DNA of 41,789 nucleotides from Deinococcales bacterium (GCA_013298595.1 JAAFIG010000041.1:1-41789); one strand, 5' to 3'; positions 250 to 41,789 are shown, counted from the stretch's first letter. Notes: generated by a model from the sequence alone, not told the origin. Made by a program: numbers and translations.

Positions 250-1101
250 TTACTTCGGTTGACACTCGAGAATCACCAATTCTGCAGCACAAAAAGCCCG
301 TACCGCTATCGGACCTGTTCCTAAACCCCTCGAGACAAAGCCAAGGGTTTTTTCGGTAATAAAGCCTTGCTGGTAACGTTCGCCAAATTCGGTGACACTG
401 TAAATTGCACCAATACCGGGAATACGAACTTGCCCACCGTGTGTATGCCCCGAAAGCATCAGGGCAACTGATTTTGGCACAATGGGTAGAAAATCTGGGT
501 TGTGTGACATCAGCAGTGTGGTCACATTGCTTGGTACACCATCAAGGGCTAAGGCAATATTTGGTACACCATGCCAAAGGTCATCTATGGCAGCCACAAA
601 AACATCATCGCGGACTCGAGTCGAAGTATTAACCATTAACGGAATGTTGTTTTTCTCCAAAGCTTTTTTTAAATCGTCCATGCTGGCAAAACCACTCCAC
701 CGCAAGGCGTAATCATGATTGCCCAGACAAGCAAAAGCCCCAAGTGGCACTTGGCTTAGTGGAGTAAGGGCTGCTCCAAATTCCTCGAGTAAAGTTTTAC
801 CTTGCTGCCCTAAACGCCTAAACGCCTCACCATGCACTAAATCGCCAGTTAAAAGCACCAGATCGGGATTCTGGGCTAAGGTCGCTTTGACCCACTCTTG
901 TACCTGCTCGAGTTTATGAGCTGCGCCAAAATGCAAATCGGATAAATGCGCGATTCGCAGAGGTTTTTTTAAGTTTGGTAACTGCACAGTGTGTTGTGAA
1001 ATATCAAAGCTCATGGCTTGGGCATATGAACCAAATAAGGCAATTGGTGGCAGTACCAAACCACTAAGCAAAACTTTTTTGAGGAATTCACGGCGGTTCA
1101 C
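250..1101 (-). CDS. Exported metallophosphoesterase (YkuE-like)
   Basis: The 283-residue protein has the calcineurin-like phosphoesterase motifs in order: DLHFG near residue 55, GDLVHGE, GNHDY, SHNPD and SGHTHGGQ, giving the two-metal active site. The N-terminus NRREFLKK followed by a hydrophobic stretch looks like a twin-arginine (Tat) signal, so the enzyme probably acts outside the cytoplasm. It may hydrolyse a phosphate or pyrophosphate ester, possibly of a lipid; the substrate cannot be read from sequence. The start is GTG, six bases after a TAAGCT hexamer. It is transcribed in the same direction as mnmA upstream, with a 34-base gap. Confidence 0.88.
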   Translation of the reverse strand: MNRREFLKKVLLSGLVLPPIALFGSYAQAMSFDISQHTVQLPNLKKPLRIAHLSDLHFGAAHKLEQVQEWVKATLAQNPDLVLLTGDLVHGEAFRRLGQQGKTLLEEFGAALTPLSQVPLGAFACLGNHDYALRWSGFASMDDLKKALEKNNIPLMVNTSTRVRDDVFVAAIDDLWHGVPNIALALDGVPSNVTTLLMSHNPDFLPIVPKSVALMLSGHTHGGQVRIPGIGAIYSVTEFGERYQQGFITEKTLGFVSRGLGTGPIAVRAFCAAELVILECQPK

Positions 1102-1107
1102 AAACCC

Positions 1108-1113
1108 AGCTTA
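1108..1113 (-). promoter_or_regulatory. Possible -10 of the metallophosphoesterase gene
   Basis: TAAGCT on the minus strand lies 6 bases upstream of the GTG start, the spacing of a leaderless promoter. No convincing -35 is visible. Confidence 0.3.
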
Positions 1114-1135
1114 AAGCGGTTTCATGAGTCACCAC

Positions 1136-2194
1136 TCACACAATAAAGCCGCCACCAAGTAACCTCGAGCCATCGTACAAAACCACGCTTTGCCCAGGTG
1201 TAACAGCAAATTGAGGCTCGAGTAAATCTAAAGAAAAACTGGTTGCGGTAACATTGGTTAATTTGGCTGGTACCGACGCAGTGCGGTAACGCACTTGGGC
1301 ATTGATTGTGCTGGGTAATTGCTCGAGATCAACAAGGTAATTGACCCCTCTGGCTTCGAGGGTGGTGCTGGTGCAATCTTCTTTACTACCAACAATCACT
1401 TGGTTTTTATGGGTGTCTATACGCACAATGAACCGCTCGAGATGGCTTTGAAATAATTTCATACCTTTTTTCTGCCCGATGGTGTAAAACTGCGTGCCTT
1501 CGTGCTCACCAACAACATTGCCTTGCAGATCCACGATATCGCCGCTTTTAGCTGGAATACGCTCGGTTAAATACTCTTGAATGGTATTAGGAATAAAACA
1601 AATATCTTGGCTCTCGGCTTTTTCGGCAGTAATTAACCCGTACTGACGTGCTAATTCACGCACAGCAGGTTTCTCGAGATGCCCAACTGGAAATAAGACT
1701 TTCTCGAGTGAAGCCCTTGGCGTTCCCCAGAGGAAATAGGTTTGGTCTTTTTTCGGGTCGTTGCCACGATGAAATTCTGGTTGAAGACCATTATCTACGC
1801 GTTGTACAAAGTGTCCTGTGGCAACAAAATCGCAACCTAGCATTTGGGCTTTTTTGACCAAATGATCAAATTTGACTTTGCTATTGCAGAGCACACATGG
1901 GTTGGGTGTTCTGCCCGCACGGTATTCTTCAACAAATGGCGAGATGATATTTTCCTCGAAGACATCACGGTAATCGAGTAAATAAAAAGGTAAACCCAGA
2001 TGGTCAGCAACCCGCCGAGCTTCGTAAGCAGCATCTGGTGAGCAGCACGAATCAAAAGTCGAAACACGTTTCTGATCGGGCCAGAAACGCATCATTGCCC
2101 CAATGACTTCATAACCAGCATCACGCAATAACGCAGCTGTGACACTGGAATCCACTCCGCCAGACATAGCAGCTAAAACTCGACCTTTACTCAT
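1136..2194 (-). CDS. mnmA: tRNA-specific 2-thiouridylase MnmA
   Basis: This enzyme installs the 2-thio group on wobble U34 of tRNA for Lys, Glu and Gln, using ATP and a persulfide relay. The 352-residue protein has the PP-loop AMSGGVDSSVT at residues 9-19, the catalytic Cys100 in NPCVLCN and the partner Cys199 in QDICFIP, close to the C102/C199 pair of E. coli. It also has ATGHF and KDQTYFLW motifs and a C-terminal beta-barrel. The frame is open 37 codons further upstream, but the ATG at 2194 is preceded by AGGAG (2199-2203) and gives the family N-terminus, so I use it. Confidence 0.95.
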   Translation of the reverse strand: MSKGRVLAAMSGGVDSSVTAALLRDAGYEVIGAMMRFWPDQKRVSTFDSCCSPDAAYEARRVADHLGLPFYLLDYRDVFEENIISPFVEEYRAGRTPNPCVLCNSKVKFDHLVKKAQMLGCDFVATGHFVQRVDNGLQPEFHRGNDPKKDQTYFLWGTPRASLEKVLFPVGHLEKPAVRELARQYGLITAEKAESQDICFIPNTIQEYLTERIPAKSGDIVDLQGNVVGEHEGTQFYTIGQKKGMKLFQSHLERFIVRIDTHKNQVIVGSKEDCTSTTLEARGVNYLVDLEQLPSTINAQVRYRTASVPAKLTNVTATSFSLDLLEPQFAVTPGQSVVLYDGSRLLGGGFIV

Positions 2195-2321
2195 ACAACT
2201 CCTCATGGGTAGACCAGCTACCGACAACCGAGGCATTGTAGCGGTTTTTGCTCGAGTTGTCAGGTAAGCAAAGGTACAAATGATTAAGAAATCCATAAAG
2301 GGCAAATTCCCGAATTTTCGT

Positions 2322-2327
2322 TACAAT
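2322..2327 (+). promoter_or_regulatory. -10 hexamer TACAAT of a probably leaderless gene
   Basis: TACAAT ends 6 bases before the ATG at 2334 and there is no ribosome binding site between them. This fits a leaderless transcript of the CAP-domain gene. Confidence 0.45.
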
Positions 2328-2333
2328 AAAGCC

Positions 2334-3401
2334 ATGAAATATCTTGTCTTACTGCTTTTTGCCCTGATTTCAATGGCATTGGCTTTTGATCCATTACCAC
2401 CAATGCCCAGTACCACAGGAGTTGAAGCTGCCGAAACAGCCATTCTCGAGTCAACCAATCAGCAACGGGCTAAGCTTGGTTTAGTACCCTTAAAACTTGA
2501 TCTTCGCTTACGAGCAGCGGCGCGTTTACATGCGCTTGATATGGCAACCCGAAATTATTTTTCGCACAACAGCAATAAAACTGGTTTTGAAACCCCTAGC
2601 AAACGTGTTAACCAAGCGGGTATTCTCGAGTTAGGGATTGGCGAAAACATTGCTTTTAACGAAGTCCCTAGTGTCGAAAGTGCCAGCAAACTGATGGTGC
2701 AATGGATGAACAGCCCACCGCACCGAGCTGCGATTCTCAATCCTGAATTCACCCATATTGGCGTGGGTGTGTACCGCCGAGCCGATGGACGCACATATGG
2801 CGTACAGGACTTCGCCATTCGTAACCTTGAAGTGATAGCCGATACCACTCGAGCTGTGCTGAACATTCAACAATTTAAACTTGAGGGACGAGTAGACCTT
2901 GGTTTGCAAATTGCATTATTTGCAGATAAACAATACCTTGGGATTATCCCAACCACTATTTCAGGTCGTTTTTTACGGGTGCTGGATTATGAACCTAATA
3001 AATTCTATCAACTTGGTTGGCGTAAAAATGGTTCTAGTGAAGCATTTTTGGTACAAGCCACCACCACTTTACCAAGTACTTTCCAAGCAGGAGCCGCCAA
3101 AATTAATCTGCAACGCGATGCACCTTATACAGTCAGTGGTACACTCGAGGCACGTCAACAAGATAGTTTTACCTTAACGCTGCAATTTCCAAATGCTAGC
3201 AAAAATGTTTTGTTACTCGAGCGAATCGGCAGCACCGAAGAACGGACTATTGCAAAAAACAATAGCATTCAAACCCGTTGTGCTGTTGGAGCGCCTCGTC
3301 GCCCGATGCAAATTGGTTATGGCAACAACTCATTTACGTTTACCCACCGATTTGTTATGGATTGCAAAACAGGAATGCTTGACCCAGGAGCAGAAAAGTA
3401 G
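2334..3401 (+). CDS. Secreted CAP/SCP-domain protein
   Basis: The 355-residue protein starts with a clear signal peptide (Lys then a Leu-rich core, ending near MALAFD). Residues about 37-165 form a bacterial CAP/SCP domain of the YkwD type, with NQQRAKLGL, the His in ARLHALDMA, NYFSHN, GENIAF and HRAAILNPEF motifs. The C-terminal ~190 residues are beta-rich and not recognised. Bacterial CAP proteins are extracellular, and most have no known enzyme activity. I chose the ATG at 2334 over an earlier in-frame start because it begins the signal peptide and follows TACAAT. It converges on the DUF1028 gene with an 11-base gap and no visible terminator. Confidence 0.85.
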   Translation: MKYLVLLLFALISMALAFDPLPPMPSTTGVEAAETAILESTNQQRAKLGLVPLKLDLRLRAAARLHALDMATRNYFSHNSNKTGFETPSKRVNQAGILELGIGENIAFNEVPSVESASKLMVQWMNSPPHRAAILNPEFTHIGVGVYRRADGRTYGVQDFAIRNLEVIADTTRAVLNIQQFKLEGRVDLGLQIALFADKQYLGIIPTTISGRFLRVLDYEPNKFYQLGWRKNGSSEAFLVQATTTLPSTFQAGAAKINLQRDAPYTVSGTLEARQQDSFTLTLQFPNASKNVLLLERIGSTEERTIAKNNSIQTRCAVGAPRRPMQIGYGNNSFTFTHRFVMDCKTGMLDPGAEK

Positions 3402-3412
3402 CACGATCTTGT

Positions 3413-4285
3413 TTACCCCAAGTATTTCTGCTCGAGGAATTCCAAAGCCACAGGGTCAATAAAGCCTTTTTGTGTGAATCGTTCCTCGAGGTTTTCGATA
3501 CCCGCTAAATCTTCAAGTGCATGTTGAGCTGCATGTTGCCATTGGGTGAATTCGTTACCTGCTTTGCGGAGCACCATGAGAACTCGAGTGGCAATATCAT
3601 CTCGGATGGGTAAAAGGGCTTCTGGGTCTGGGCGTTCAAAAAGCAACCGATGAATGCTGAGTAAGCGTTGTAATTCGAGAATAGGGGTGCTGTGATCGTC
3701 TATCCGTAAATCTATGTAACGGTCGTTGAATCCTGCATAACCACCCTTAATCCTTGCCACGTATAAAGCAGCGCTTTGTCTGCCTCGAGCATCACCGCCT
3801 GTGGTATCGGCGGCAAGTAAAGCGGTTAATAAGCGTTCAGGGAAAGCTAAATCGGTTCGGGCTAAGAATGTTTCGACCAGTGCATCAATGACTTCCGCCC
3901 CAGTTAATAAGTTGCCTTGGGCGGCAAAGCCCTGCCCTGAGCGTCCACCTGCCCAAGCATGACAAGCACTACCTGTGAACGAATAACTCGAGCCGTCTGC
4001 ACTGACCAAACCATATTGCCGAGATTGATGTTCGGGGTCGTTCGCTTCAAGCATGATGGCAATATCGCCCAGTTTTTGCCCTGCCCGTAATGCCTCGAGT
4101 GTCCTCAGACCGAAACTGGTATTAGCATAACTTTGGGTTGCTACTGCGCCCACACCACCTTCGAGCCACGGAACAACACTGCCTACAGCGAGAAATTTAC
4201 TGGCAACCACCACGCCTAAATCTTGGCTGTTCGGGTCTTTGGCAACAAGGCTGAAGGTAGCAACAGGCGGTAAATTAAGTAGCAT
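3413..4285 (-). CDS. DUF1028 family protein
   Basis: The 290-residue protein matches the DUF1028 family in its first ~220 residues: TFSLVAKDP, DLGVVVASKF, GGVGAVATQSYAN, GLVSADGSS, FTGSACHAWAG, GFAAQGNLL and a later GGDARGRQSAAL. Family members resemble Ntn-hydrolases in fold, and their substrate is unknown. The C-terminal ~70 residues look like the short helical extension found in many members. It lies back to back with khpB, whose start is 46 bases away. The start is the ATG whose complement is at 4283-4285. Confidence 0.85.
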   Translation of the reverse strand: MLLNLPPVATFSLVAKDPNSQDLGVVVASKFLAVGSVVPWLEGGVGAVATQSYANTSFGLRTLEALRAGQKLGDIAIMLEANDPEHQSRQYGLVSADGSSYSFTGSACHAWAGGRSGQGFAAQGNLLTGAEVIDALVETFLARTDLAFPERLLTALLAADTTGGDARGRQSAALYVARIKGGYAGFNDRYIDLRIDDHSTPILELQRLLSIHRLLFERPDPEALLPIRDDIATRVLMVLRKAGNEFTQWQHAAQHALEDLAGIENLEERFTQKGFIDPVALEFLEQKYLG

Positions 4286-4318
4286 TGCTTACACTCTACT
4301 TTATTGTCAGGAGTTTGA

Positions 4319-4324
4319 TAGACT
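4319..4324 (+). promoter_or_regulatory. -10 hexamer TAGACT before khpB
   Basis: TAGACT ends 7 bases before the khpB ATG at 4332. No Shine-Dalgarno fits between them, so transcription probably starts at or next to the start codon. Confidence 0.4.
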
Positions 4325-4331
4325 CTATAGC

Positions 4332-5744: not shown

Positions 5745-7158
5745 TGATTTGAGCAAGGGTTTTAACAGCATCTCGGATTGCATTAGGTGGTACTGCTGCG
5801 TAACCCAGTAAGAATCCACCTCGAGCTAAAGGAGTTTGGCTGTAGGCACTGATTGGCATGACTTCAAGGTGATGTTGAGCTGCAATGCTCGAGGTGTGTG
5901 TGTCGTTGTAGCCTGCTGGTAACCAAGCTGCGAGGTGCATGCCTGCTTCTAAACCTTGGACTTCAAGATTTGGAATGTGTTTTGCTAAGTTTTCGCGTAG
6001 CACGTATTGTCGCTCAAGGTAGTGTTTCTGGGTGCGGCGAATATGGCGTGCAAAGTGGCGTTCTTGAATAAAGGTGGTTAAAGTGGTTTGTTCGAGCAAA
6101 CTTGAACCTCGGTCATGTAAAGCTCGAGCCGCTGCAAAAGCCGCTGCTAGGTTATTGGGCACAATCATGTAACCAAGGCGCAAAGCTGGGAATAGCACTT
6201 TGGAAAGAGTGCCAATGTAAATCACTCTTCCGTTGGTGTCTAAGCTTTGTAAACTCTCGAGTGGACGTTGATCGTAACGGTATTCGCTGTCGTAATCATC
6301 CTCGAGTATCCAAGCATTAGCGGTATTTGCCCAGTGCAATAATTGCAAACGGCGTTCATGGCTCATGGTGACACTGGTTGGGTATTGATGCGATGGTGTG
6401 ACATAGGCTAAACGAGCTGTTGGTGCAAGTTGCTGCCCGATTGCTACAACTAAACCATTGGCATCCACAGGCACAGGTACAATTTGTGCCCCAGCAGTGA
6501 GCAATGCGCCTCTGGCACCAATATACCCAGGGTTTTCATGCCAAACAAGATCGTTTGGCTCGAGTAATAATTGAGCGGCGAGTACAATGGCTTGTTGTGA
6601 ACCACTGGTGATAATGATTTGCTCGGCGTTGCAGTGCACAGCTCGAGTGCTGGCAATATGGGTGGCGATGGCTTGTCGCAAGGCAGGTAAGCCAGCGGGG
6701 TCTGGATAGCCATAATTGCTGGTTTGTTTGACAGCTCGGCTGTAATGGCGTGTCCAAATATCCCAAGGGAATAAGCTCAGATCGCCAATACCATGACGAA
6801 AAGCAGCTAAAATTCGTTCTCGAGGAATGGTCACAGCCGTATTTGCCAGTGCAATACCACGTTGTGAAAGTTGTTGGGCAGTCACTCGAGTTTGCATTGT
6901 TGCTCGGTGAGCTACAAATGTACCTGCTCCAACTTTGGCTTCTAAAAAACCTTCGGCTATCAGGTCATCAAAGGCTGCTAGAACTGTGTTCCTCGAGATG
7001 CCATAGGTGGTGGCGATAGCTCGAGTAGCAGGAAGTTTTGTGCCATGCTGTAATTTCTGGCTAATAATGGCTTGGCGTAAAGTTTTGTAAATCTGACGAT
7101 GTAGGGGCACATCCGAAGTTGTAACTAAATGCAAATGCGGCAGGGGAGACTCGAGCAT
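5725..7158 (-). CDS. MocR-family transcription regulator (GntR HTH + aminotransferase fold)
   Basis: The 477-residue protein joins an N-terminal winged helix of the GntR type (residues ~14-85, with GTKLPATRAIA and ISRNTVLAAF) to a class-I aminotransferase-like domain (~115-470). The PLP lysine is in GTLSKVLFPALRLGY, with an upstream ILEDDYDSEYRY motif. MocR proteins sense PLP or PLP adducts and bind direct repeats. It is divergent from paiB, and two exact AAATGGTACT repeats lie between them, so it probably controls itself and paiB-GNAT. A PdxR role over pdxST is possible but not shown by position. A TACCAT hexamer lies 6 bases before the ATG. Confidence 0.9.
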   Translation of the reverse strand: MLESPLPHLHLVTTSDVPLHRQIYKTLRQAIISQKLQHGTKLPATRAIATTYGISRNTVLAAFDDLIAEGFLEAKVGAGTFVAHRATMQTRVTAQQLSQRGIALANTAVTIPRERILAAFRHGIGDLSLFPWDIWTRHYSRAVKQTSNYGYPDPAGLPALRQAIATHIASTRAVHCNAEQIIITSGSQQAIVLAAQLLLEPNDLVWHENPGYIGARGALLTAGAQIVPVPVDANGLVVAIGQQLAPTARLAYVTPSHQYPTSVTMSHERRLQLLHWANTANAWILEDDYDSEYRYDQRPLESLQSLDTNGRVIYIGTLSKVLFPALRLGYMIVPNNLAAAFAAARALHDRGSSLLEQTTLTTFIQERHFARHIRRTQKHYLERQYVLRENLAKHIPNLEVQGLEAGMHLAAWLPAGYNDTHTSSIAAQHHLEVMPISAYSQTPLARGGFLLGYAAVPPNAIRDAVKTLAQIIKTNTQ

Positions 7159-7162
7159 TTAC

Positions 7163-7196
7163 AAATGGTACTCGAAAATGCTTATAAAATGGTACT
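7163..7196. promoter_or_regulatory. Predicted MocR operator: two direct repeats
   Basis: AAATGGTACT occurs exactly twice, at 7163-7172 and 7187-7196, with starts 24 bp apart. On the regulator's strand this reads AGTACCATTT. The first copy covers the TACCAT -10 of the MocR gene (7165-7170). The second abuts the -35 of paiB. GabR, a MocR protein, binds direct repeats with an ATACCA core, which is similar. Confidence 0.55.
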
Positions 7197-7224
7197 TTGC
7201 ACAGAGCCAATAACTCAGTACAGT
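7197..7224 (+). promoter_or_regulatory. paiB promoter (TTGCAC-16-TACAGT)
   Basis: A -35 TTGCAC (7197-7202) and -10 TACAGT (7219-7224) are 16 bp apart, and the -10 ends 6 bases before ATG 7231. This fits a leaderless start. The -35 touches the second direct repeat of the predicted operator. Confidence 0.5.
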
Positions 7225-7230
7225 ATGGGC

Positions 7231-7824
7231 ATGTATATTCCATCGTTTAATGCAGTTACCGAAGAAGCCCCACTCTGGGATTTAATGCGTGAGTTTAATT
7301 TCGCCATGTTAATAACGGCTCCGAATAGTCTTCCTTTTGCGACCAGTATTCCATTTACACCACTCGAGGAAACAAGGAAATTAACGGCGCATGTTGCTAA
7401 AGCCAATCCACAATGGCAGCATTTGGAATCAGATGCAGAAGTGCTGGTGGTGTTCCAAGCCGAACATGCGCTGGTCTCGAGCCGATGGTATGAAAAAAAT
7501 CCGAATGTACCCACTTGGAATTATGCGACAGTGCATGTGTATGGCAAACCGCGTTTGTTAAATCCAACTGAAACCAGAGCACAACTGATGGCTTTAATGC
7601 AGCAACATGGGCATGGCAAGGAAATGAATGATTTATCCGAAAAGTACTTAGCAGGAATGCAAAAGGAATTGGTTGGCTTTGAAATAAGTATCACGCGGCT
7701 CGAGGGGAAATTTAAGCTTTCACAAAATAAAACTCGTCAAGATCAGCAAAATGTGATTAATCAACTCGAGCAACAAGGCGAACTCGAGCAAGGTGTGGCT
7801 AAGCGTATGAAAGCTTTACAATAA
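7231..7824 (+). CDS. paiB: PaiB-family FMN-binding protein
   Basis: The protein (~197 residues) starts MYIPSFNAV and matches PaiB-type FMN-binding split-barrel proteins: LITA near residue 28, PFTPLE, LTAHVAKANPQW, VLVVFQAEHALVSSRWY, VPTWNYATVHVYGKPR and a C-terminal LEGKFKLSQNK. In Bacillus PaiB is described as a negative regulator of sporulation and protease genes; the biochemical role of most members is open. The frame extends upstream, but MYIP is the family start. The next gene is a GNAT acetyltransferase 8 bases on, matching the paiAB-type pairing. Confidence 0.88.
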   Translation: MYIPSFNAVTEEAPLWDLMREFNFAMLITAPNSLPFATSIPFTPLEETRKLTAHVAKANPQWQHLESDAEVLVVFQAEHALVSSRWYEKNPNVPTWNYATVHVYGKPRLLNPTETRAQLMALMQQHGHGKEMNDLSEKYLAGMQKELVGFEISITRLEGKFKLSQNKTRQDQQNVINQLEQQGELEQGVAKRMKALQ

Positions 7825-7832
7825 AGGTAACC

Positions 7833-8429
7833 ATGACAATTTTAGAAAACCAGTTTGTTCGCCTCGAGCCGCTACAAGAAACCCATATTCCTGCTTTGCT
7901 AGAAATTGCCCAAGCAACACCACCCAGCGAATACGCTCTGACTTATGTGCCACGCACCTTAGAAGCCATGACAGCTTATGTGCAAACAGCTTTACAAGCT
8001 CGAGAAGCAAAACAAGCCATGCCTTTTGCGACCACTAAAAATGGGGTTGTGGTTGGTTGTACCCGTTTTGGTAACCTCGAGTATTGGGCTTGGGAAAAGC
8101 AAAAAGGCAACCCCGATGCAGCCGAAATTGGTTGGACTTGGCTTGCACCAAGTGCCCAACGAACCAGTGTCAACAGTGCAGCTAAATTGTTAATGCTCGA
8201 GTTTGCTTTTGAAACCTGGGGAGTGCAACGCGTCACCATCAAAACCAATGAACGTAACACCCGCTCGAGAAATGCGATTTTGCGTCTCGGAGCCAGTTTT
8301 GAAGGTGTGCTGAGAGCGCATGTACTCGGCAACGATGGTGAAATTCGTAACACTGCGATGTACAGCATTCTCGAGTCTGAATGGGCGGAGGTTAAACAGC
8401 GTTTGCAAGGGTTTTTACTCGAGCACTGA
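7833..8429 (+). CDS. GNAT family N-acetyltransferase (RimJ/RimL type)
   Basis: The 198-residue protein has the RimJ/RimL-like GNAT layout: an N-terminal VRLEPLQETH strand-helix, the acceptor region, EIGWTWLAPSAQRTSVN (motif A, acetyl-CoA binding) and ERNTRSRNAILRLGASFEGVLRAH (motif B region). It probably transfers an acetyl group to an amine or protein N-terminus. It lies 8 bases after paiB with AAAGG as a possible ribosome site, so it is likely co-transcribed and under the same MocR operator. The acceptor is not known; polyamine, as in PaiA, is only one possibility. Confidence 0.88.
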   Translation: MTILENQFVRLEPLQETHIPALLEIAQATPPSEYALTYVPRTLEAMTAYVQTALQAREAKQAMPFATTKNGVVVGCTRFGNLEYWAWEKQKGNPDAAEIGWTWLAPSAQRTSVNSAAKLLMLEFAFETWGVQRVTIKTNERNTRSRNAILRLGASFEGVLRAHVLGNDGEIRNTAMYSILESEWAEVKQRLQGFLLEH

Positions 8430-8439
8430 AACAATCTCG

Positions 8440-8445
8440 TATGAT
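8440..8445 (+). promoter_or_regulatory. -10 hexamer TATGAT before the broken membrane gene
   Basis: TATGAT ends 8 bases before GTG 8454. A CTCGAG copy (8448-8453) fills the gap between the -10 and the start codon. Confidence 0.35.
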
Positions 8446-8453
8446 TGCTCGAG

Positions 8454-8797
8454 GTGAATAGCTTAAAACAATACCAAGTCTTGAGTGGTCGGCAATTTGT
8501 GTCTTATATCGGTATGGCTTTGATTATTTTTGGGCTATTGGTGATTTGTTCCACAGTTTTGCAAATGCTCAATTCAACCCGCGATTTTAGCGTGTCAAAC
8601 CCTGTTATACCACCACTTTTTCTGATGAGGATTTCCGTAAAGTATCCGAATTACTTGGCAGCGTGCCACGTTGTGGTAGTTGGCAACATTGGTTTGTACA
8701 AATGGGTATGAACAAGCCACCCGTTCGAGCTTTTTTGGGAATTATGATGCTTGGTATTGGTAGATTATTGTTGTTTCTAGGGCAAGTTGGATTATAA
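8454..8797 (+). pseudogene. Frameshifted small membrane protein
   Basis: From GTG 8454 the frame encodes a soluble N-terminus and one strong membrane segment (VSYIGMALIIFGLLVI). After the CTTTTTC run near 8618-8624 the original frame gives unlike sequence to a stop at 8711. The -1 frame then reads SDEDFRKVSELLGSVPRCGS and a second membrane segment to a TAA at 8795-8797. Adding one T to the run restores a ~115-residue two-helix membrane protein. This is either a disabling deletion or an assembly error. The two bases of a programmed slip do not match a good slippery heptamer. The family is not recognised. Confidence 0.55.
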
Positions 8798-8813
8798 AGA
8801 AACGGAGTTACAC

Positions 8814-8896
8814 TTGTTCAAATCAAATGTCGGGCTTGTGCTGGTTTAAATGCCCAAAATGCAAAATTTTGTAACCAATGCGGACAAATGCTTTAA
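8814..8896 (+). pseudogene. Zinc-ribbon remnant without a usable start
   Basis: The frame ending at TAA 8894-8896 encodes IKCRACAGLNAQNAKFCNQC then GQML, a textbook double-CxxC zinc ribbon. No ATG, GTG or TTG opens this frame after the TAA at 8795. A TTG at 8814 behind ACGGAG is out of frame by one base. A single missing base after it would give a short zinc-ribbon protein. Together with the upstream frameshift this suggests a decaying locus. Alternatively the ribbon was once the C-terminal domain of the membrane protein. Confidence 0.45.
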
Positions 8897-8915
8897 GAAA
8901 TTTTTGCAAATAGTA

Positions 8916-8921
8916 TAAACT
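8916..8921 (+). promoter_or_regulatory. -10 hexamer TAAACT before the SNF2 gene
   Basis: TAAACT (overlapped by TAGTAT at 8911-8916) ends 8 bases before the GTG at 8930. No ribosome site is present. Confidence 0.35.
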
Positions 8922-8929
8922 GTTTATTT

Positions 8930-11900
8930 GTGAACGAAGTTTTCTTTCGGACGTGTTTTGACTCGGGTACTTGGACTCGAGGGCGTGGTGTGCGTTCTCG
9001 AGTCCAAAAAGTGCAATTGGATGCTGATCATGACTTAACAGGTATGGTGCTTGGTTCTAACGATGAAAAGTACCGTGTACGAGTGGCTTTTATTTATAAC
9101 AATGGTGTTTTGGATGATGTTGATGGTGATTGTACTTGCCCGATCAGTTGGAATTGTAAACATGTTGTGGCTTTGCTACTCGAGGGCTTATCGCGGGGTG
9201 TGCTCAAAGATGATTTTGCTGAAACCCCTGATGTATTGGCAAAATTAAAGGTGTTGAATGCTGCTAAATCTGCGCCAAAAGAGGATGCTCGAGTGACTGA
9301 ATTGCCTAAAGCTTCTTTGAATAAACCTTTGGATTTATGGTTAGCTAACGCTCCAGTAGCAGGTGCGGCAACAACTGCGGCAGTGAATGTGAAACAAACC
9401 TTGTTGTTTTCATTATTTGTAGCCGATGGTAAAACCCAGTGCCAATTGTGGGTGGCAAAAATATCGAGTAAAGGGGCTTTATCCGATATCAAAGCCTATA
9501 AAGTGCCACATAGTCTCGAGCAATTACCACAGTACGCTAAGCGTGATCGGGCATTGATTCAGGCATTACAAGCTGCCCAAGTTCGGTCGTATCAATTGGA
9601 AACGAATTTTGCACTCGAGGATGGCGATTTAGCTGGGTATCTGCTGGAGCGTTTAATTAAAACTGAACGTTGTTATTGGCTTGCGCCTCAAGAACATGTG
9701 CTTTTAGCCCTTAGTGAAGCCCGAGCGGGTTTGCCCACTTGGAAAATGCAAAAAGATGGTTCGCAAATACCAGTTTTTGAGACATTGCCAACCAGTCATG
9801 CGGTTTTGCCATTAACGCCACCGTGGTATGTAGATACTGAACGTGGGCAATTAGGGCGTTTAGAGACCAATTTAGAGGCTAAAGCCGCTAAACATTTTGC
9901 CAGTTGCCCACCAATTAAACCCGAGATGATGTTTGCCTTTCGTGATGCACTACGGGCACGTTTTCCAAGTCTCCCCGAACCAATTGTACCCAATGCTCGA
10001 GAACTTGATGTGTTGTGCCAACCGATTCTGACGTTAAAAACCATGCAGGCAAAACACACTTGGCAAACCGATTTGCATTACGCCACCCTCGAGTATCAGT
10101 ACGGAGAAACCAAAGTTGCCGAAGGCGATAAACGCGAATTGGTTTCTTATCAAGGTGATGTGCTCGAGCGAATTAAACGCGATGCCGATATCGAACGCAA
10201 TGCGATTATGAGTTTACAAGCTCTGAATTTTCGTAAAGCCATGCCAAATGCTGTGCCTCAAGTGCAACACGCTTGGACTTTTGGTTCGGGCAATGGTACC
10301 AGCGAAGCGTGGCTTGATTTCTTGCATCGTTTTGCACCAACGCTACGCGAACTGGGTTGGCAGATTCTCGAGGATACTTCGTGGGCGTTTCAGTTGGCAG
10401 AAATTTCTGATTGGTATGGCAGTGTTGATGATCGCAACGATTGGTTTGGTTTGGATTTAGGGGTGATAGTGGCAGGTGAACGCCTGAGTTTACTGCCGAT
10501 TCTTTCGGATATGATTGCGCGTTTACCCAAGGATTTTACCTTAGAAAAACTTAAAGCCTTACCCGAAAAACACGTTTTTTACACCACCCTAGCTGATAAG
10601 CGTATGTTGGCATTGCCCGCAGCCAGAATTCGAGCTGTGCTGGGTGTTTTACTCGAGTTATACGGCGACCGCCCCAAAGGTGTTTTGCGGCTCTCGATGT
10701 TTGATGCCGCTCGGTTGCTCGAGTTACAAGAAGCTTTGCAGTTACGTTGGCACGGAGCAGACCGATTACTGGATTTAGCCAAACGCTTACAATCCTTTGC
10801 GGGTATAGATTCTTTGCAGCCCCCCAAAACACTCGAGGCAACATTGCGTCCATATCAACTCGAGGGAATGGCTTGGTTGCAGTTTTTACGCGAATTTGAA
10901 TTAGCAGGTGTACTTGCCGACGATATGGGATTGGGTAAAACAGTGCAAGCTTTAGCCCATTTACTGCTCGAGCAAGAAGCTGGGCGTTTAAAGCAGCCTG
11001 CTTTGGTGGTTATGCCAACCAGTTTAATTACCAATTGGCGACTTGAGGCAACTCGTTTTGCACCAAGCTTAAAAATAGCTGTGTTACACGGACAATCTCG
11101 GGATCATAATAATCTCGAAGGAGCAGATTTAATTCTCACAACATATCCGATTTTGCTCAGGGATTTTGATAAACTCAAGAAAAAGCAATTCCACACCATT
11201 ATTCTTGATGAAGCCCAGTACATTAAAAATGCTAAAAGTAGCACCGCCCAAGCTGCCGGTGCCTTAAAAGCCAAGCACCGAATTTGCTTAACAGGCACAC
11301 CACTCGAGAATCATCTTGGTGAACTCTGGAGTATTTATAATTTTTTAATGCCAGGTTTTCTTGGTGAAGACAGCAATTTTAAACAAGTTTACCGCAACCC
11401 CATCGAACGCAGCGGCGACACAGCCCGCCGTGACTTACTTGCCAAACGAGTCAAACCATTTTTGTTACGCCGCACCAAACAAGAAGTGGCTAAAGAACTG
11501 CCCGAAAAAACTGAGATGATTGTGCCACTCGAGTTACAAGCCTCACAACGCGATTTATACGAAACCATTCGCGTAGCAGTTTCCGAACGTATCCGCGAAG
11601 AAGTAGCCAATAAAGGCTTAGCCCGTTCGCAAATTGTGGTACTTGATGCACTGCTGAAACTACGCCAAGCCTGTTGCGACCCACGCCTAGTCAAACTCGA
11701 GCAAGCCAAAACCGTGAAACACAATGCCAAACTTGAATGGCTTGAGGAAAACTTACCACCACTGCTTGACGATGGACGTAAAGTCTTATTGTTTAGTGCT
11801 TTTGCATCGCTTTTGGGGAATCTCGAGCAAACCATGAAGGATTTAAAAATTTCTTATTCCAAACTCACAGGCGAAACCAAAGACCGAGCCAGTCAAATCG

Positions 11901-29273: not shown

Positions 29274-31442
29274 TTAGGGTGTAAAGGTGTTGTTGAAGGT
29301 GCTGTACTTATTAAAGAACCATTTAACCACGCGTTCTTCGTAACCACTTGGCACATGTCCGCCGCCATTGACAATGTAAAACGTGACATCAGCAGTGCAC
29401 GGTGCAGTATTGGCTGCGTTGCGCTGACGATAGCCATTGACCACCAAACCATTGATTGAGGCATTGGCAAACACAGGGTTTGCTGAAGGTAACACCTCGA
29501 GACAACTGTTGGAATTGACCGCCCAGGCTTTGGTGGCATTGATTAAATTTCCGTATTGATTATCTAAGGCTGGGGCGGCTGTTTCGGGTAAATCATTTGA
29601 GCCATGAATATCAAAAATGCGTGGTGCGGAAACTCGAGTGAACAAACTTGGTTTGAAGAAGAAATATCCAAAACCACCATTTTGTCCACAAGTAAAATCC
29701 GAATCGGCGGGTGGGTTATATGGGGTTGTGCCATTACCACCATTGCTGGTGGTACAATAAAACGTGCCAGACACAGGAGCAATAGCCGTAATTAAATTCT
29801 TGGTATCTGGGTGGGCATAGAGCACGTATGCCATACCACCACCTCGAGATTCACCAACCACAAAAACCTGAGCAGGATCAATCAGATTACCCGCACCAAA
29901 TAATGGATTCGCTGCGTTTTCGCCTCGAGTAATGATTTCTTTAATAAAGGCTACATCGTCCACAGCTAAGGGTGGTTGCACGCCCGCCACACCATATTCG
30001 CTGCGTCCATCCATGCGGAAATTCCAAGTGGCATTTAAGCCCTGAGGCGCAACAATCACAGCCGCTTGATGGTCAGACCAAGCACTGTACGACGCTGGTA
30101 CTTGAGCATTGGTTGCCCCATCGCCGTGCAAATAAATAATCAGTGGTCTGCCACTCGCAGGGGCGGCTAAACCCGAAACATGGTATCTCGAGGTACGCCC
30201 AACTTGTAAGGCACCATTGCCAGTGACATCAAAAGTCGTTGTGCCATTGGTGCCTGCTGGCAAAGCAAAACTGGCTGTGACCGTACAATTTGCGCTCAGC
30301 GCAGCTGTGGTGTACGTATTACCAACAAGGGTACCGCCACAACCTGTGACTGTTGGAATGTACTGTGGATTTGGCGTGACCGTAAATGTGGTACTCGAGC
30401 CACTATTCACCACTCGAGAACTCGGGCTGATACTGCCATACAAACCATTTGAAGCCGTAGCAGTGAATGTGACTGGAGGAATCGCAACAAACGAAGCACT
30501 CACAGCACAATCAGCCACAATAGCCGCCGTGGTGTACGTATTGCCAACCAGTGCACCACCACAACCAGTCACGCTGGCGATGTTAAAACCCGTATTTGGT
30601 GTAACAGTGATGGTCGCCGTTGAACCACTATTGACTGTTTGTGTGGCAGGTGTAACTCCACCGTTTGCTCCTGCGCTAGCACTGACTGTAAAAGTGACGG
30701 GTGGAATCGCAGAAAACGTCGCACTGACACTACAATTAGCCGTGACAGCCGCAGTGGTGAATGTATTGCCCACCAATGCGCCACCACAACCCGTCACGCT
30801 GGCGATATTAAAACCTGCATTTGGAGTGACAGTGATTGTGGCAGTTGAACCAGCATTGACGTTTTGCGTTGCTGGTGAAACCGAGCCATTGGCTCCAGCC
30901 GAAGCGGTCACAGCAAAGGTGACGGGTGGAATTACCGAGAACGTTGCATTCACACTGCAATTTGTGGTCACAGCCGCAGTGGTGTAAGTATTACCTGCAA
31001 GCACACCACCACAACCCGTCACACTGGCAATGGTAAACCCAGCATTTGGCGTGATTATAACTGTTGTGCTCGAGCCACTGTTCACAGTTTGGGTTGCAGG
31101 CGAAACTGTACCATTCGCGCCTGCTATAGCACTGACAACAAAGGTCACAGGTGGAATGGCGGCAAAAACCGCATTGACGGTGCAATTACCCGTAATTGCA
31201 GTTGTGGTGTACGTATTACCAACCAGCGTACCGCCGCAACCTGTCACGCTCGAGATGGTAAAACCCGTATTGGGTGTGACTGTCAGTGTTGCACTCGAGC
31301 CACTCATCACACTTTGTGAAACAGGAGTAACGGTTCCGTTTGCTCCTGCGACAGCCGATACCGTGTAGCGCTGAGGGCAGCCCAGTAAACTAACACTTAA
31401 AACACCACTGAGCAGCCAATACATGACCCGATGTAATTTCAT
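29274..31442 (-). CDS. Lipoprotein esterase/depolymerase with five 75-residue repeats
   Basis: The 722-residue protein starts with a lipoprotein signal (SVSLLGC, lipid-modified Cys22). Residues ~26-398 are five tandem repeats of about 75 residues, each with AGANG-V-P, NSGS-T-T-TVTPN-GF, VTGCGG-L-GNTYTT and NC-V-A-F, with two Cys per unit. They resemble divergent InlB-type or Ig-like surface repeats. The C-terminal ~320 residues are an alpha/beta-hydrolase of the PHB-depolymerase/feruloyl-esterase type: oxyanion YLHGDG, nucleophile Ser in VVGESRGGGMAY, IFDIHGSND, and the His in GGGHVPSGY. It probably degrades a polymer or ester outside the cell. GGAGG precedes the ATG. Confidence 0.88.
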   Translation of the reverse strand: MKLHRVMYWLLSGVLSVSLLGCPQRYTVSAVAGANGTVTPVSQSVMSGSSATLTVTPNTGFTISSVTGCGGTLVGNTYTTTAITGNCTVNAVFAAIPPVTFVVSAIAGANGTVSPATQTVNSGSSTTVIITPNAGFTIASVTGCGGVLAGNTYTTAAVTTNCSVNATFSVIPPVTFAVTASAGANGSVSPATQNVNAGSTATITVTPNAGFNIASVTGCGGALVGNTFTTAAVTANCSVSATFSAIPPVTFTVSASAGANGGVTPATQTVNSGSTATITVTPNTGFNIASVTGCGGALVGNTYTTAAIVADCAVSASFVAIPPVTFTATASNGLYGSISPSSRVVNSGSSTTFTVTPNPQYIPTVTGCGGTLVGNTYTTAALSANCTVTASFALPAGTNGTTTFDVTGNGALQVGRTSRYHVSGLAAPASGRPLIIYLHGDGATNAQVPASYSAWSDHQAAVIVAPQGLNATWNFRMDGRSEYGVAGVQPPLAVDDVAFIKEIITRGENAANPLFGAGNLIDPAQVFVVGESRGGGMAYVLYAHPDTKNLITAIAPVSGTFYCTTSNGGNGTTPYNPPADSDFTCGQNGGFGYFFFKPSLFTRVSAPRIFDIHGSNDLPETAAPALDNQYGNLINATKAWAVNSNSCLEVLPSANPVFANASINGLVVNGYRQRNAANTAPCTADVTFYIVNGGGHVPSGYEERVVKWFFNKYSTFNNTFTP
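30240..31367 (-). repeat. Five tandem ~225-bp coding repeats
   Basis: Phrases such as the complement of ACCACCACAACC and GTATTACCAAC recur about every 225 bp in five copies, matching the protein repeats. The inner three are the most alike, pointing to expansion by recombination or gene conversion. The outermost unit near the hydrolase is the most diverged. Confidence 0.85.
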
Positions 31443-34215: not shown

Positions 34216-34222
34216 TCGCAAT

Positions 34223-34443: not shown

Positions 34444-34466
34444 AACTCAGTTATTGGAGCTTACAC

Positions 34467-35057: not shown

Positions 35058-35186
35058 ATCAGCAAAATCGGATAATTCATTTTCCTATTCTATTTTTCTT
35101 TGTTGTACGAGTTTTATTTCAGGCTCGAGTGGTTTGCCCTATGTAAGATGTAGACTGTGTAAAGTAAATCCAGAAGAGGTGCGAAG

Positions 35187-35543: not shown

Positions 35544-35624
35544 AGTTAATTGGTTCTAATCTCGAGTTAAGGCGTTATACTGTTGTGTGAATGATTTTCT
35601 CGAGTTTCTGAAACAACGTGCTGT

Positions 35625-35960: not shown

Positions 35961-35984
35961 CTACTCGCTTGACTCGAGATGCAC

Positions 35985-36018
35985 AAAAGCTCTGAGCATA
36001 TGCTCAGAGCTTTTAATT
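35985..36018. terminator. Perfect palindromic bidirectional terminator
   Basis: A 30-base perfect palindrome (35985-36014) begins AAAAGCTCTGAGCAT and ends in TTTT followed by AATTTTTTT. It lies between the convergent PhnA-like and M20 genes and has A/T runs on both sides. Confidence 0.9.
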
Positions 36019-36021
36019 TTT

Positions 36022-37179: not shown

Positions 37180-37187
37180 GGCTGCGT

Positions 37188-37193
37188 AGTATA
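37188..37193 (-). promoter_or_regulatory. -10 hexamer TATACT of the M20 gene
   Basis: TATACT on the minus strand ends 8 bases before the ATG at 37179. Confidence 0.4.
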
Positions 37194-37245
37194 GCAATTT
37201 TGGCAGGGCTAGACAGAAAACCCTTTTATACTCATCAGAAAAACG

Positions 37246-37251
37246 TACAAT
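37246..37251 (+). promoter_or_regulatory. -10 hexamer TACAAT of glcF
   Basis: TACAAT ends 6 bases before ATG 37258, with no ribosome site between them. Confidence 0.45.
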
Positions 37252-37257
37252 TCTTTT

Positions 37258-38598: not shown

Positions 38599-38601
38599 GC
38601 C

Positions 38602-38982
38602 ATGTACCAAGACTTGATTACCAAGGCACACGCATTTGCTCGCCCAATTCAACCAAGTGAAAGTTGTTCAGCAGGTGGTGTCGCAGCTTTGATTGTGGCT
38701 GAATCGGGCGATGAATTCACGGGTATCTGTATGGAATTTTCGTGCAGTTTAGGATTTTGTGCTGAACATGCGGCTGTTGCTGAAATGCTCAAGCACCAGC
38801 AAGCAAAAATTAAATTTGTGGTTGCTGTGGACTGGTCAGGTAAGGTTTTACCACCATGTGGACGTTGCCGAGAAATGCTTTGGCAACTCGAGCCAAGTAA
38901 TAAAGATGCTTTAGTGATTTTAAATTCCCAAAAAGCAATTCCATTACATGAATTATTGCCATTTCCTTGGCAAAGTGCTTAA
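38602..38982 (+). CDS. Cytidine-deaminase-like zinc protein
   Basis: The 126-residue protein has the deaminase zinc site CAEHAAV (Cys53, catalytic Glu55) and PCGRCREML (Cys86, Cys89), with Cys rather than His as first ligand as in tetrameric cytidine deaminases. It may deaminate cytidine or a base analogue. It is shorter and less conserved than Cdd at its N-terminus, so blasticidin-S-deaminase-like activity cannot be excluded. It begins 3 bases after glcF and shares 4 bases at its end with the convergent TetR gene. Confidence 0.85.
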   Translation: MYQDLITKAHAFARPIQPSESCSAGGVAALIVAESGDEFTGICMEFSCSLGFCAEHAAVAEMLKHQQAKIKFVVAVDWSGKVLPPCGRCREMLWQLEPSNKDALVILNSQKAIPLHELLPFPWQSA

Positions 38983-39611
38983 ACCTTTTTTCTTGCGGCA
39001 ATTTGCTCGAGCCAGGCTTCGATTCGCTCGAGTTGCTGATCTAAAAAAGTTGGGTTATTCATGGCGTTGGCTAGGGTGTACGCGCCGTATAACTTGGCTA
39101 TAAAATCGGCGGCTAAAGCAGGTGCTTCTGGTTTCTCGAGGATGGTAAATTGCTGCTCGGCAAATTCAATATGTAAACGCAGTAATTCGCCTGCTTGTTC
39201 GGCAAGAATTCCACCTGTGTCACGTAAACCTTGGGCGAGTGAAGCATAGGGGCAACCATGAGCAGTCAGTAATTCGCGGTTGTTCTGCGAATCTTTAACT
39301 AAGGAACGTAAACGCTCGAGTGGATTGGCTTGGCATTTGGCAAGCTCGAGTTCGGCTTGAACTTCTTTGTGTCTGGCAGCAATGACTGCACTCACCAGAG
39401 CATCTTTGGTGCGGTAATGATAATACACATTGCCCAGTGGTACGCCAGCTACTAAGGCAACATCAGCGATTGTGGTGGTGCGTATTCCCTGTTCATGAAA
39501 CAAAGTCATGGCTGCCTCGAGCAAACGTTGTTTTGCAGTGCTTTTGCTGTTGGGGTTTTCGAGGGTAGTGGTCAATGGAATCACCTGATTGCGTAGAAGA
39601 AACTGACTCAT
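38979..39611 (-). CDS. TetR-family repressor
   Basis: The 210-residue protein has the TetR helix-turn-helix at ~27-75 (AKQRLLEAAMTLFHEQGIRTTTIADVALVAGVPLGNVYYHYRTK) and an all-helical ligand-binding domain with a HGCPYASLAQGLRDTG motif, where a Cys occurs in this subgroup. A palindrome TTAGTCA-AC-TGACTAA upstream of the nearby YceI operon (41335-41350) is a likely target. An ATTTGA-TTG-TCAAAT repeat at 39627-39641, just upstream of its own start, may be a second site. The ligand is unknown. Confidence 0.9.
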   Translation of the reverse strand: MSQFLLRNQVIPLTTTLENPNSKSTAKQRLLEAAMTLFHEQGIRTTTIADVALVAGVPLGNVYYHYRTKDALVSAVIAARHKEVQAELELAKCQANPLERLRSLVKDSQNNRELLTAHGCPYASLAQGLRDTGGILAEQAGELLRLHIEFAEQQFTILEKPEAPALAADFIAKLYGAYTLANAMNNPTFLDQQLERIEAWLEQIAARKKV

Positions 39612-39626
39612 TGTGCAGTATGGCGA

Positions 39627-39641
39627 ATTTGATTGTCAAAT
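39627..39641. promoter_or_regulatory. Inverted repeat upstream of the TetR gene
   Basis: ATTTGA-TTG-TCAAAT, 16 bases upstream of the TetR start. On the minus strand it contains a perfect TTGACA -35-like hexamer. It may be an autoregulatory site, though it does not match the YceI operator. Confidence 0.4.
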
Positions 39642-39669
39642 GCAGGGTTTTCTTTGGTTCATAAATTTT

Positions 39670-39701
39670 CTTCCCTCGAGTTCAGATGGACTCGAGGGAA
39701 G
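39670..39701 (-). terminator. Stem of paired CTCGAG motifs after the DM13 operon
   Basis: CTTCCCTCGAGT, an 8-base loop, then ACTCGAGGGAAG form a 12-bp stem, 15 bases past the stop of the last operon gene. On the minus strand it is followed only by a short AT-rich tract, so it is a weak or Rho-assisted terminator. Confidence 0.55.
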
Positions 39702-39716
39702 GTTGTGTTGCTTTTT

Positions 39717-40178
39717 TTAGTTCAGGGTTGCGCCGCCAAAAGTGACACCTGCTAGATCGCACCAGATGATCGCGCTTTTATACGCTGCTAAGTCTGTACC
39801 TGCTGGGATTTTGTATTCGTAAAATCCGCTGAATGGGGCGGGGAGCTTTCCAAGGTCAAGGTATTTGGCGGCTTTAACTTCGGCGGGTTTGCTATCTTTG
39901 CTTGGTAATGCAGCAGCGTATAAGTACACGTGTAAATCTGGTCCGACTTCGGTTTTGAGGTTTTGTAAGCGCAGAACCGTGCTTCCATTGGTTTTTTTGA
40001 CAATGGCAATTGTGCCTGTGGTTGGTGCGGCAATGGTGCTGAGTTTTGCAAAATTCAGCACAGTTTCGACGGTGGTGACAGTTTGAATGGTTTGGGCATG
40101 AGCCACAAAATTGGGAACAAGGGCAGCGCTAAAGCTGGCGGCGGCAATCAAAGCAATAACTGATTTTTTAATATTCAT
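39717..40178 (-). CDS. Exported DM13-domain protein (copy B)
   Basis: The 153-residue protein has a signal peptide (cleaved near AHAQT) and a DM13-like domain: PTTGTIAIVKK, GPDLHVYLYAA, YLDLGKLPAPFSGFYEYKIPAGTDLAAYKSAIIWCDLAGVTFGGATL. DM13 is predicted to bind a redox cofactor through its conserved Cys; its role is unknown. It is a diverged duplicate of the next gene, roughly half identical. ATG 40178 follows AGGAG (40185-40189), better than the TTG at 40184. Last gene of the YceI operon. Confidence 0.85.
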   Translation of the reverse strand: MNIKKSVIALIAAASFSAALVPNFVAHAQTIQTVTTVETVLNFAKLSTIAAPTTGTIAIVKKTNGSTVLRLQNLKTEVGPDLHVYLYAAALPSKDSKPAEVKAAKYLDLGKLPAPFSGFYEYKIPAGTDLAAYKSAIIWCDLAGVTFGGATLN

Positions 40179-40246
40179 GATCAACTCCTAAGGGTCTCTC
40201 GAGTGAGTTCGAGGCGAGAAGTGGTTGAACGAAGGCGGCATGATTT

Positions 40247-40687
40247 TTATTTGAGTTTTGCTCCTGCGAAAGTCACGCTGGCAACATCGCACCAGATGAT
40301 GACGCTTTTGAATTGCTCGAGTTTGGTATTGGCTGGGATTTTGTAGCTGTAATTGCCTTTGAATGGCGCGGCTAATTTGCCAAGATCTACGTACTTGGTG
40401 TTTTTAATGTTCTTGGCTTCTTTGCTGGGGATACTGCCAGCGTAGAGGTAGACGTGAAGGTCAGGTCCTGCTTCGGTTTTGATATTTTTTAGGTTTAAAA
40501 CGCGGTTGCCATCGGAGGTTTTGACAATCTCGAGTGTGCCTGTGGTTGGTGCGCCAACAGCGATGAGTTTGGTGCTTTGTAAAGTGCTGCTCATGGTGTC
40601 TGGTTTCATGGTTTGGGCATTGGCGAAAATGGCGAGGCTAAGGGCGGAAATTCCGAGGATAGTGGTGAGTACTTTGTTGTTTTTCAT
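40247..40687 (-). CDS. Exported DM13-domain protein (copy A)
   Basis: The 146-residue protein has a signal peptide (ISALSLAIFANAQ) and the same DM13-like core as its neighbour: PTTGTLEIVKTSDGNRVL, GPDLHVYLYAGSIPSK, YVDLGKLAAPFKGNYSYKIP, FKSVIIWCDVASVTFAGAKL, with a single conserved Cys. Two such genes in tandem suggest duplication within the operon. AGGAG lies 6 bases before the ATG. It sits 47 bases after the YceI gene and 68 bases before copy B. Confidence 0.86.
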   Translation of the reverse strand: MKNNKVLTTILGISALSLAIFANAQTMKPDTMSSTLQSTKLIAVGAPTTGTLEIVKTSDGNRVLNLKNIKTEAGPDLHVYLYAGSIPSKEAKNIKNTKYVDLGKLAAPFKGNYSYKIPANTKLEQFKSVIIWCDVASVTFAGAKLK

Positions 40688-40734
40688 GATGAACTCCTGT
40701 TTGGGTTTTGCTTGAAAGAGGGCTTTTGAACGAT

Positions 40735-41313
40735 TTACTTCGGCTCGAGGGTGAAGTTGACTTTGACAGCGACGGTTGGGTCTGAACCTGGAATACTGAT
40801 GTTGTGATCGGCTAAGGTGATCTTAAAAGCGGTGCTGACGTTGACTCGAGCGCCATCAAATTTCAGGGTGATCGGGGCGCTGAGTGGTTTGTTAATGCCG
40901 TTGATTTCAAATTTTCCATTGGCGATGGCTTTGGTTTCTTTGTTTTTCTCAAGGGCTTTTATGCCACTGATGTTGTTTACAGTAAAAATTGCATTGGGGT
41001 GTTTTTCTGCGCCTAGAAAGCCGCGTCCGTGTTCGTCGCGCAGTCCAATGCCTGTGTCGAGTTTGGCAAGGGCAACACTGACAGTGCCACTGGTTTTTCC
41101 AAGGTCTTTTGGGTCGAAGTTGAGGTTAGCACTGACAGCATTGATTCGACCAGGAATGGGGATCAGGGTGACGCTGAAGTTGAATTCTGCAGTTGCGGCT
41201 GGTGTGTTAGCTACGCGATAATTGAGGTTTCCAGCAAGCGCAGTAACGGCGAGGGTAGTGCCAAGTAGGGCGAGAAGTGTTGGACGAATTTTGGGTAACT
41301 TGAGCGGTTTCAT
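40735..41313 (-). CDS. YceI-family exported protein
   Basis: The 192-residue protein has a signal peptide (LLALLGTTLAVTALAGN) and a YceI domain: AEFNFSVTLIPIPGRI, ANLNFDPKDLGKTSGTVSVALAKLDTGIGLRDEHGRG, KHPNAIFTV, GKFEINGINKPLSAPITLKFD. YceI proteins are lipid-binding lipocalin-like barrels, some binding isoprenoid quinones, which fits with redox-type DM13 partners. GGAGGC gives the ribosome site before the ATG. It is the first gene of a three-gene operon under a predicted TetR operator. Confidence 0.92.
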   Translation of the reverse strand: MKPLKLPKIRPTLLALLGTTLAVTALAGNLNYRVANTPAATAEFNFSVTLIPIPGRINAVSANLNFDPKDLGKTSGTVSVALAKLDTGIGLRDEHGRGFLGAEKHPNAIFTVNNISGIKALEKNKETKAIANGKFEINGINKPLSAPITLKFDGARVNVSTAFKITLADHNISIPGSDPTVAVKVNFTLEPK

Positions 41314-41334
41314 ATTGCCTCCAGAAAAATTTAG

Positions 41335-41350
41335 TTAGTCAACTGACTAA
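41335..41350. promoter_or_regulatory. Predicted TetR operator of the YceI-DM13 operon
   Basis: TTAGTCA-AC-TGACTAA is a perfect 7-bp inverted repeat with a 2-base spacer, 21 bases upstream of the YceI start. Its size is typical of TetR-family sites, and a TetR gene lies at the other end of the operon. Confidence 0.65.
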
Positions 41351-41440
41351 AGTACGGAGGCTCAAAAGGAAAGGTTCAAAGCAAAACCACTGACTGAACT
41401 CAGGTTCAAAATTTGATTATGTTTCTAACGAAATTTGTAC

Positions 41441-41446
41441 TATGCT
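41441..41446 (+). promoter_or_regulatory. -10 hexamer TATGCT of the BNR-repeat gene
   Basis: TATGCT (overlapped by TACTAT at 41439-41444) ends 8 bases before ATG 41455, with no ribosome site. Confidence 0.3.
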
Positions 41447-41454
41447 GTCACATC

Positions 41455-41789
41455 ATGAATCAGGTTCGATTACTGGTCGGAACGCGTAAAGGCGCGTTTA
41501 TTCTTAGCTCTCAGGATCGGATTCAATGGGATATTAGCGAACCGATATTCGCGGGTCTCGAGGTTTACCACATCAAAGGATCAGTGGTGGATACAAACCG
41601 TATTTACGCAGCACCCGGCACTGCTTGGTTCGGGCAGTTATTGCATCGCTCCGATGATGGTGGTGCCACTTGGTCGGACACCAGCAACGATTTTCAGTAC
41701 TCAGGTGTTGTGCAAACGCATCAGTGGTACGACGGCACACCGCACCCTTGGGAATTCAAACGTGTTTGGCATCTCGAGCCATCTCCAAC
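41455..41789 (+). CDS. BNR/Asp-box repeat protein (sialidase-like fold), N-terminal part
   Basis: From ATG 41455 the frame is open to the window end (111 codons). It reads [31 protein letters not shown] and [12 protein letters not shown], the last an Asp-box as in BNR/sortilin beta-propellers. There is no signal peptide. Such proteins are often labelled glycosyl hydrolase or exo-sialidase, but the short Asp-box alone does not prove enzyme activity. Only the first blades are visible. Confidence 0.8.

Follow-up and report, generated by a model that had tools for sequence, protein, structure and literature searches.

CTCGAG as a highly iterated palindrome of coding and non-coding DNA in a small group of bacterial genomes

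The window (the whole stretch of 41,789 bp that was analysed) corresponds to contig C36 in the 4.58-Mb draft genome (G000) of a Deinococcales bacterium and contains 38 predicted genes. A preliminary description of this DNA had counted 285 copies of the hexamer CTCGAG by hand; an exact search of the 41,789 bp returned 285, or one per 147 bp, the motif being palindromic and hence strandless (Table 1). At least one copy was present in 37 of the 38 predicted genes, in agreement with the earlier statement that the motif occurs in almost every gene. The longest gap, previously given as approximately 706 bp, was confirmed as 706 bp free of CTCGAG, with the bordering copies starting at 40845 and 41557 (712 bp apart). 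Base composition predicted 8.8 copies, so the excess was 32x, close to the roughly 30-fold first proposed; the expectation was 4.5 under a first-order and 21 under a second-order Markov model. The runner-up among over-represented 6-bp palindromes in the window was AAATTT at 2.0x. One predicted gene encodes a putative secreted esterase-like protein, in which five tandem repeats of approximately 70 residues precede the catalytic part.

Table 1. Positions of CTCGAG and of related features in the window.
Feature	Coordinates	Strand	Basis
CTCGAG copies, n=285	265..41778	.	exact search; 265 in predicted genes (38.0 kb), 20 in non-coding DNA (3.8 kb)
First CTCGAG in the window	265..270	.	exact search
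Last CTCGAG in the window	41773..41778	.	exact search
Longest CTCGAG-free stretch, 706 bp	40851..41556	.	exact search
Sole CTCGAG-free gene among the 38 predicted	39720..40184	-	gene-by-gene count
Predicted secreted esterase-like protein	29274..31442	-	

The count was extended to the source genome, where 27,159 copies were found in 4,582,226 bp (one per 169 bp), against 15 copies of the reversed control GAGCTC in the same sequence. A sample of 1.64 Mb gave one CTCGAG per 171 bp, and in a 440-kb sample of G000 the motif exceeded expectation approximately 31x. Relatives were surveyed among 111 genomes of the order. A density of 5.9–7.7 per kb was shared by the four genomes of family f1 (G000 to G003) and by G012 and G016, which belong to genus g11 of family f2. 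In these six genomes, hereafter the rich genomes, CTCGAG occurred about once per 130–170 bases and GAGCTC was nearly absent; sampled density was 6.0–7.6 per kb at a sampled GC of 0.45–0.59. The genomes are drafts with a completeness of 91–94% (58% for G016). Elsewhere, density was 3.6 per kb in G008 (f2), 1.4–3.4 in the apparently Meiothermus-like genera g13, g23 and g24, 0.6–1.1 in the apparently Thermus-like genus g7, and 0.3 in G004 (f2). The best GlmS match for the source genome among the named matches listed was from Meiothermus (69%), and the rich genomes would represent a small bacterial group related to Thermus and Meiothermus.

Because the excess was found in six independent genomes of two families, an artefact, which the preliminary description had kept in view, was ruled out. 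High-GC loci of unrelated origin reach a 4–8x excess of CTCGAG, so codon use may supply part of the 6–8x excess seen in high-GC members of the order; the rich genomes, with an excess of 20–31x, fall outside this caveat. In the literature that was searched, no account of an excess of CTCGAG in a bacterium was found. Viral contigs were scanned for clustered CTCGAG; the matches listed were mostly high-GC contigs, and the five richest among them had no protein match to sampled G000 genes.

Other six-base palindromes were extremely avoided in the same six rich genomes. GAGCTC was seen 0 times against 86 expected in 440 kb of G000, and AGGCCT, CCGCGG, GGGCCC and TTCGAA were near zero. GGCC stood at 0.01 in G000, G001 and G003 and was normal in G012 and G016. 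Such palindrome avoidance accompanied the CTCGAG excess and was absent from G008 and from the Meiothermus-like genomes.

CTCGAG density was 6.16 per kb in coding and 5.6–5.9 per kb in non-coding DNA, and this equality places the signal at the level of DNA, not of codon bias. The profile was nearly flat from −300 bp to +300 bp of gene starts, except for a trough over the initial 25 bp. Outside the motif, CTCGA, TCGAG and TCGA occurred at 0.72–0.76 of expectation, which indicates that the full six bases are read. The earlier observation that no longer flank is shared held in that there was no flanking consensus; it did not hold for the 8-bp extension CCTCGAGG, which fell below the prediction from its parts. 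By rough arithmetic this extension stood at approximately 0.4 of the expectation from flanking frequencies in the 440-kb sample of G000, and the remaining three palindromic 8-bp extensions were mildly rarer than predicted.

Density was nearly equal in the two families whatever their GC content and fell away in AT-rich segments: it was 6–7 per kb at a GC of 0.44–0.50 and below 1 per kb at a GC below 0.35. Gaps of more than 1.2 kb without CTCGAG were mostly AT-rich. One such desert lies at 6249–10528 of locus L295 (contig C34 of G000), and approximately 36 further gaps exceeded 1.2 kb. Judging from their composition, the AT-rich, CTCGAG-poor segments are probably horizontally acquired islands, probably of recent arrival, and CTCGAG density could mark foreign DNA in this family.

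All three reading frames were heavily used. Approximately 57% of coding copies lay in the Leu-Glu frame, and the motif occupied 66% of the opportunities offered by Leu-Glu, 65% of those offered by [STPA]-R-[VADEG] and 39% of those offered by x-S-[SR]. The signal changes amino-acid sequence: in G000, the Leu-Glu dipeptide was at 2.34x, Ser-Ser at 1.56x and Arg-Val at 1.31x, with Glu-Leu at 1.0. A Leu-Glu excess of 2.1–2.55 was also present in G001, G002, G003, G012 and G008, against a median of 1.06 in a comparison set of 80 unrelated loci. Outside CTCGAG, CTC accounted for 8.6% of the codons for Leu and GAG for 19% of those for Glu. The share of copies in the Leu-Glu frame would suit a preference for CTC-GAG as the writing of that dipeptide. 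This reading, like an assembly or linker artefact, is refuted: non-coding density equals coding density, the remaining two frames are heavily used as well, CTC and GAG are minor codons outside the motif, which rules out codon preference, and six independent genomes agree.

Spacing had been described as near random. This was nearly so, with the exceptions that pairs closer than approximately 20 bp were scarce in genes and that gaps of 320–1000 bp were fewer than under a geometric law. The 1-kb variance was 0.54 in the window and 0.985 in the 440-kb sample, and the low value was not upheld. In genes, pairs less than 10 bp apart occurred at 0.14 of expectation and pairs 10–20 bp apart at approximately 0.4, with recovery by approximately 60 bp. 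After correction for amino-acid opportunity, occupancy of Leu-Glu by the motif fell from 0.75 to 0.16 near another copy. Hairpin avoidance as the only cause was rejected, since other inverted repeats of similar GC were far less depleted in genes (no lower than 0.67 and 0.88 of expectation for the nearest pairs). Non-coding DNA had no net depletion of close pairs, terminator hairpins inflating close inverted repeats there. A protein footprint is a possibility, though none is claimed because the exclusion is missing in non-coding DNA; a local diminishing return from neighbouring copies is likely. In non-coding DNA of G000, pairs 10–15 bp apart were enriched 1.9x and density rose to 8.6 per kb at 25–50 bp past stop codons, as if CTCGAG 3' of stop codons were used in terminator hairpins.

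Turnover was followed in 106 ortholog pairs of G000 and G001 (38,000 codons; fourfold-site identity 0.42). The two species carried 657 and 732 sites, of which 56% were common to both, rank 2 of 367 hexamers (median 20%), and the remainder were placed elsewhere. What is maintained is the density of CTCGAG, not its position, as single sites turn over between species. At conserved Leu-Glu pairs, motif retention was 82% and the between-species correlation 0.30 (0.21–0.39). A codon model, which takes no account of amino-acid replacement or of genes evolving at different rates, predicted a correlation of 0.45–0.57 for neutral loss with boosted gain and 0.70–0.79 for selection-slowed loss. The value of 0.30 lies below both, so the data do not show that individual sites are strongly protected over long periods.

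CTCGAG is the target of XhoI and PaeR7I, and restriction targets are as a rule avoided. The solitary XhoI-type methyltransferase that had been proposed was searched for by family, by orthology and among the genes next to XhoI-family nucleases, and none was found in the rich genomes. The families searched in the rich genomes and their relatives were Eco57I, N6_N4_Mtase, DNA_methylase, N6_Mtase and MethyltransfD12; within these five Pfam families, no set of related enzymes extended to more than three of the six rich genomes. Nucleases of the XhoI family (PF04555) were absent from all six and from families f1 and f2, and present in four genomes of the order outside them (L436, L437 and L438 in G018, G042 and G048; L439 in G009, where the reading frame is interrupted by stops). 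Methylases adjoining these nucleases were of two unrelated types. No close relative of either was present in the rich genomes; the second had a distant relative (26%) in G002 only. The first type was found in 22 Thermus-like g7 genomes, in which no XhoI nuclease was found and CTCGAG was infrequent; the second was scattered among Meiothermus-like genomes and had no apparent influence on CTCGAG density. In genus g10, the three genomes with an XhoI nuclease had 0.7–1.0 CTCGAG per kb and those without it 1.7–2.0, so sites appear to be avoided there in the usual way.

A cytosine-5 methylase was common to G000, G001 and G012 and shared 58% identity with a plasmid-borne methylase that is annotated beside an HpaII-family nuclease; this neighbour points to CCGG as its target. 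CCGG was avoided in the same three genomes. Recognition of CTCGAG or CCGG by the methylases described here is assigned from gene neighbourhood. The cytosine-5 methylase was rejected as a driver on account of its relative's HpaII-family neighbour, and because G002 and G003 held no grouping relative.

Sequences one mismatch from CTCGAG were counted. Transition neighbours stood at 0.98–1.52x and transversion neighbours at 0.12–0.68x of expectation; the transition neighbours CTTGAG and CTCGAA were above expectation. Vsr-like repair of C-to-T changes was not supported, as the C-to-T neighbours were enriched and not depleted. Depletion of CTGGAG and TTGGAA as a source of conversion was set aside, since all GGA-containing writings of Leu-Glu were low, possibly through Shine-Dalgarno avoidance.

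We put at about 0.5 the probability that CTCGAG is a highly iterated palindrome acting at the DNA level through a sequence-specific resident protein. Such a protein would read all six bases and would give, or spread, a small advantage wherever the protein sequence permits a CTCGAG, with an extra copy within approximately 20–30 bp of another bringing less gain. It would most likely be a DNA-binding or DNA-processing protein (nucleoid, recombination and repair, or DNA uptake) and not a restriction-modification methylase. More tentatively, the motif may be a methylation-independent six-base tag, read by a protein and near saturation of the permitted places, an architectural or self-recognition code for which the family proteome has been rewritten.

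The alternatives were ranked with a methylase and repair bias ahead of uptake-driven spread, and pure mutation bias last. A solitary CTCGAG methylase, of another family or different in each genome, could act with methyl-directed mismatch repair to ratchet near-matches into CTCGAG, a mechanism reportedly proposed by Elhai for the highly iterated palindromes (HIPs) of cyanobacteria. The excess of CTTGAG and CTCGAA is what flux into or out of CTCGAG could give, and in cyanobacteria a HIP-specific methylase is present where an alternate HIP is abundant (PMC4390886). We nevertheless regard this as rather unlikely: the rich genomes lack an XhoI nuclease, a close neighbour-type methylase and a common member of the five families; where those methylase types do occur, CTCGAG is at ordinary or just moderate levels; and near-matches are not exhausted, the transition neighbours being at or above expectation.

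Spread as a DNA-uptake tag by molecular drive, with competent cells preferring motif-bearing fragments, appears less probable again. Relatives of Thermus are naturally competent, and the density of CTCGAG is kept while its positions shift. Uptake sequences are similarly genic and regularly spaced, and their accumulation has been ascribed to drive, with no further function (PMC1939737). Those known are 9–12 bases long, non-palindromic and several-fold rarer, and one-mismatch forms of CTCGAG appear not to be over-represented as a whole. The fast turnover of sites would also suit a context-dependent mutation bias that makes CTCGAG without any factor or benefit. Such a bias would have to need all six bases, with the five-base parts at 0.75 outside the motif, to override amino-acid selection at Leu-Glu and to hold density nearly constant across a 14-point GC range, and we consider it very improbable. 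The reading in which a resident protein recognises the motif is ranked above these three.

What HIP1 does has been an open question since 1995; in the model now current, its cause is a DNA methylase. CTCGAG is an independent and denser HIP-like case, for which no shared methylase was found in the searched families. As members of the order range from background to extreme density, the cause should be traceable by comparison of gene content. The doubling of Leu-Glu is a clear instance of a DNA-level signal altering protein sequence, which affects phylogenetics and the analysis of codon usage in this bacterial group.

Among known systems, XhoI and PaeR7I share the target sequence with CTCGAG as described here, but their nuclease (PF04555) and both methylase types are missing from the rich genomes, apart from the one distant relative in G002. 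Chi and other motifs of recombination or chromosome maintenance are likewise short over-represented words read by a protein; these are usually orientation-dependent and much rarer, whereas a palindrome is directionless. The uptake sequences of Pasteurellaceae and Neisseriaceae (USS and DUS) resemble CTCGAG as short genome-wide words, also in genes, whose density is kept while positions move; they differ in the length, lack of symmetry and rarity given above. The parallel with HIP1 (GCGATCGC) drawn in the preliminary description, as a similar phenomenon in another lineage, is borne out. Like HIP1 and the alternate HIPs, CTCGAG is a short palindrome in genome-wide excess, in coding and non-coding DNA alike, shared by a clade and low in probably foreign DNA; cyanobacterial HIPs are also scarce in foreign DNA and of unknown function. 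HIP1 proper is another sequence and belongs to cyanobacteria, a different phylum, and CGATCG was depleted to 0.10 in the 440-kb sample. A word- or core-specific methylase, a feature reported for cyanobacterial HIPs, was not found within the five families and the close XhoI/PaeR7 types. CTCGAG is 6 bp long with four of six bases G or C, doubles a dipeptide in the proteome and, at approximately 5,900–7,700 copies per Mb against 1,000–2,000 per Mb given for HIPs, is approximately 3–6 times denser.
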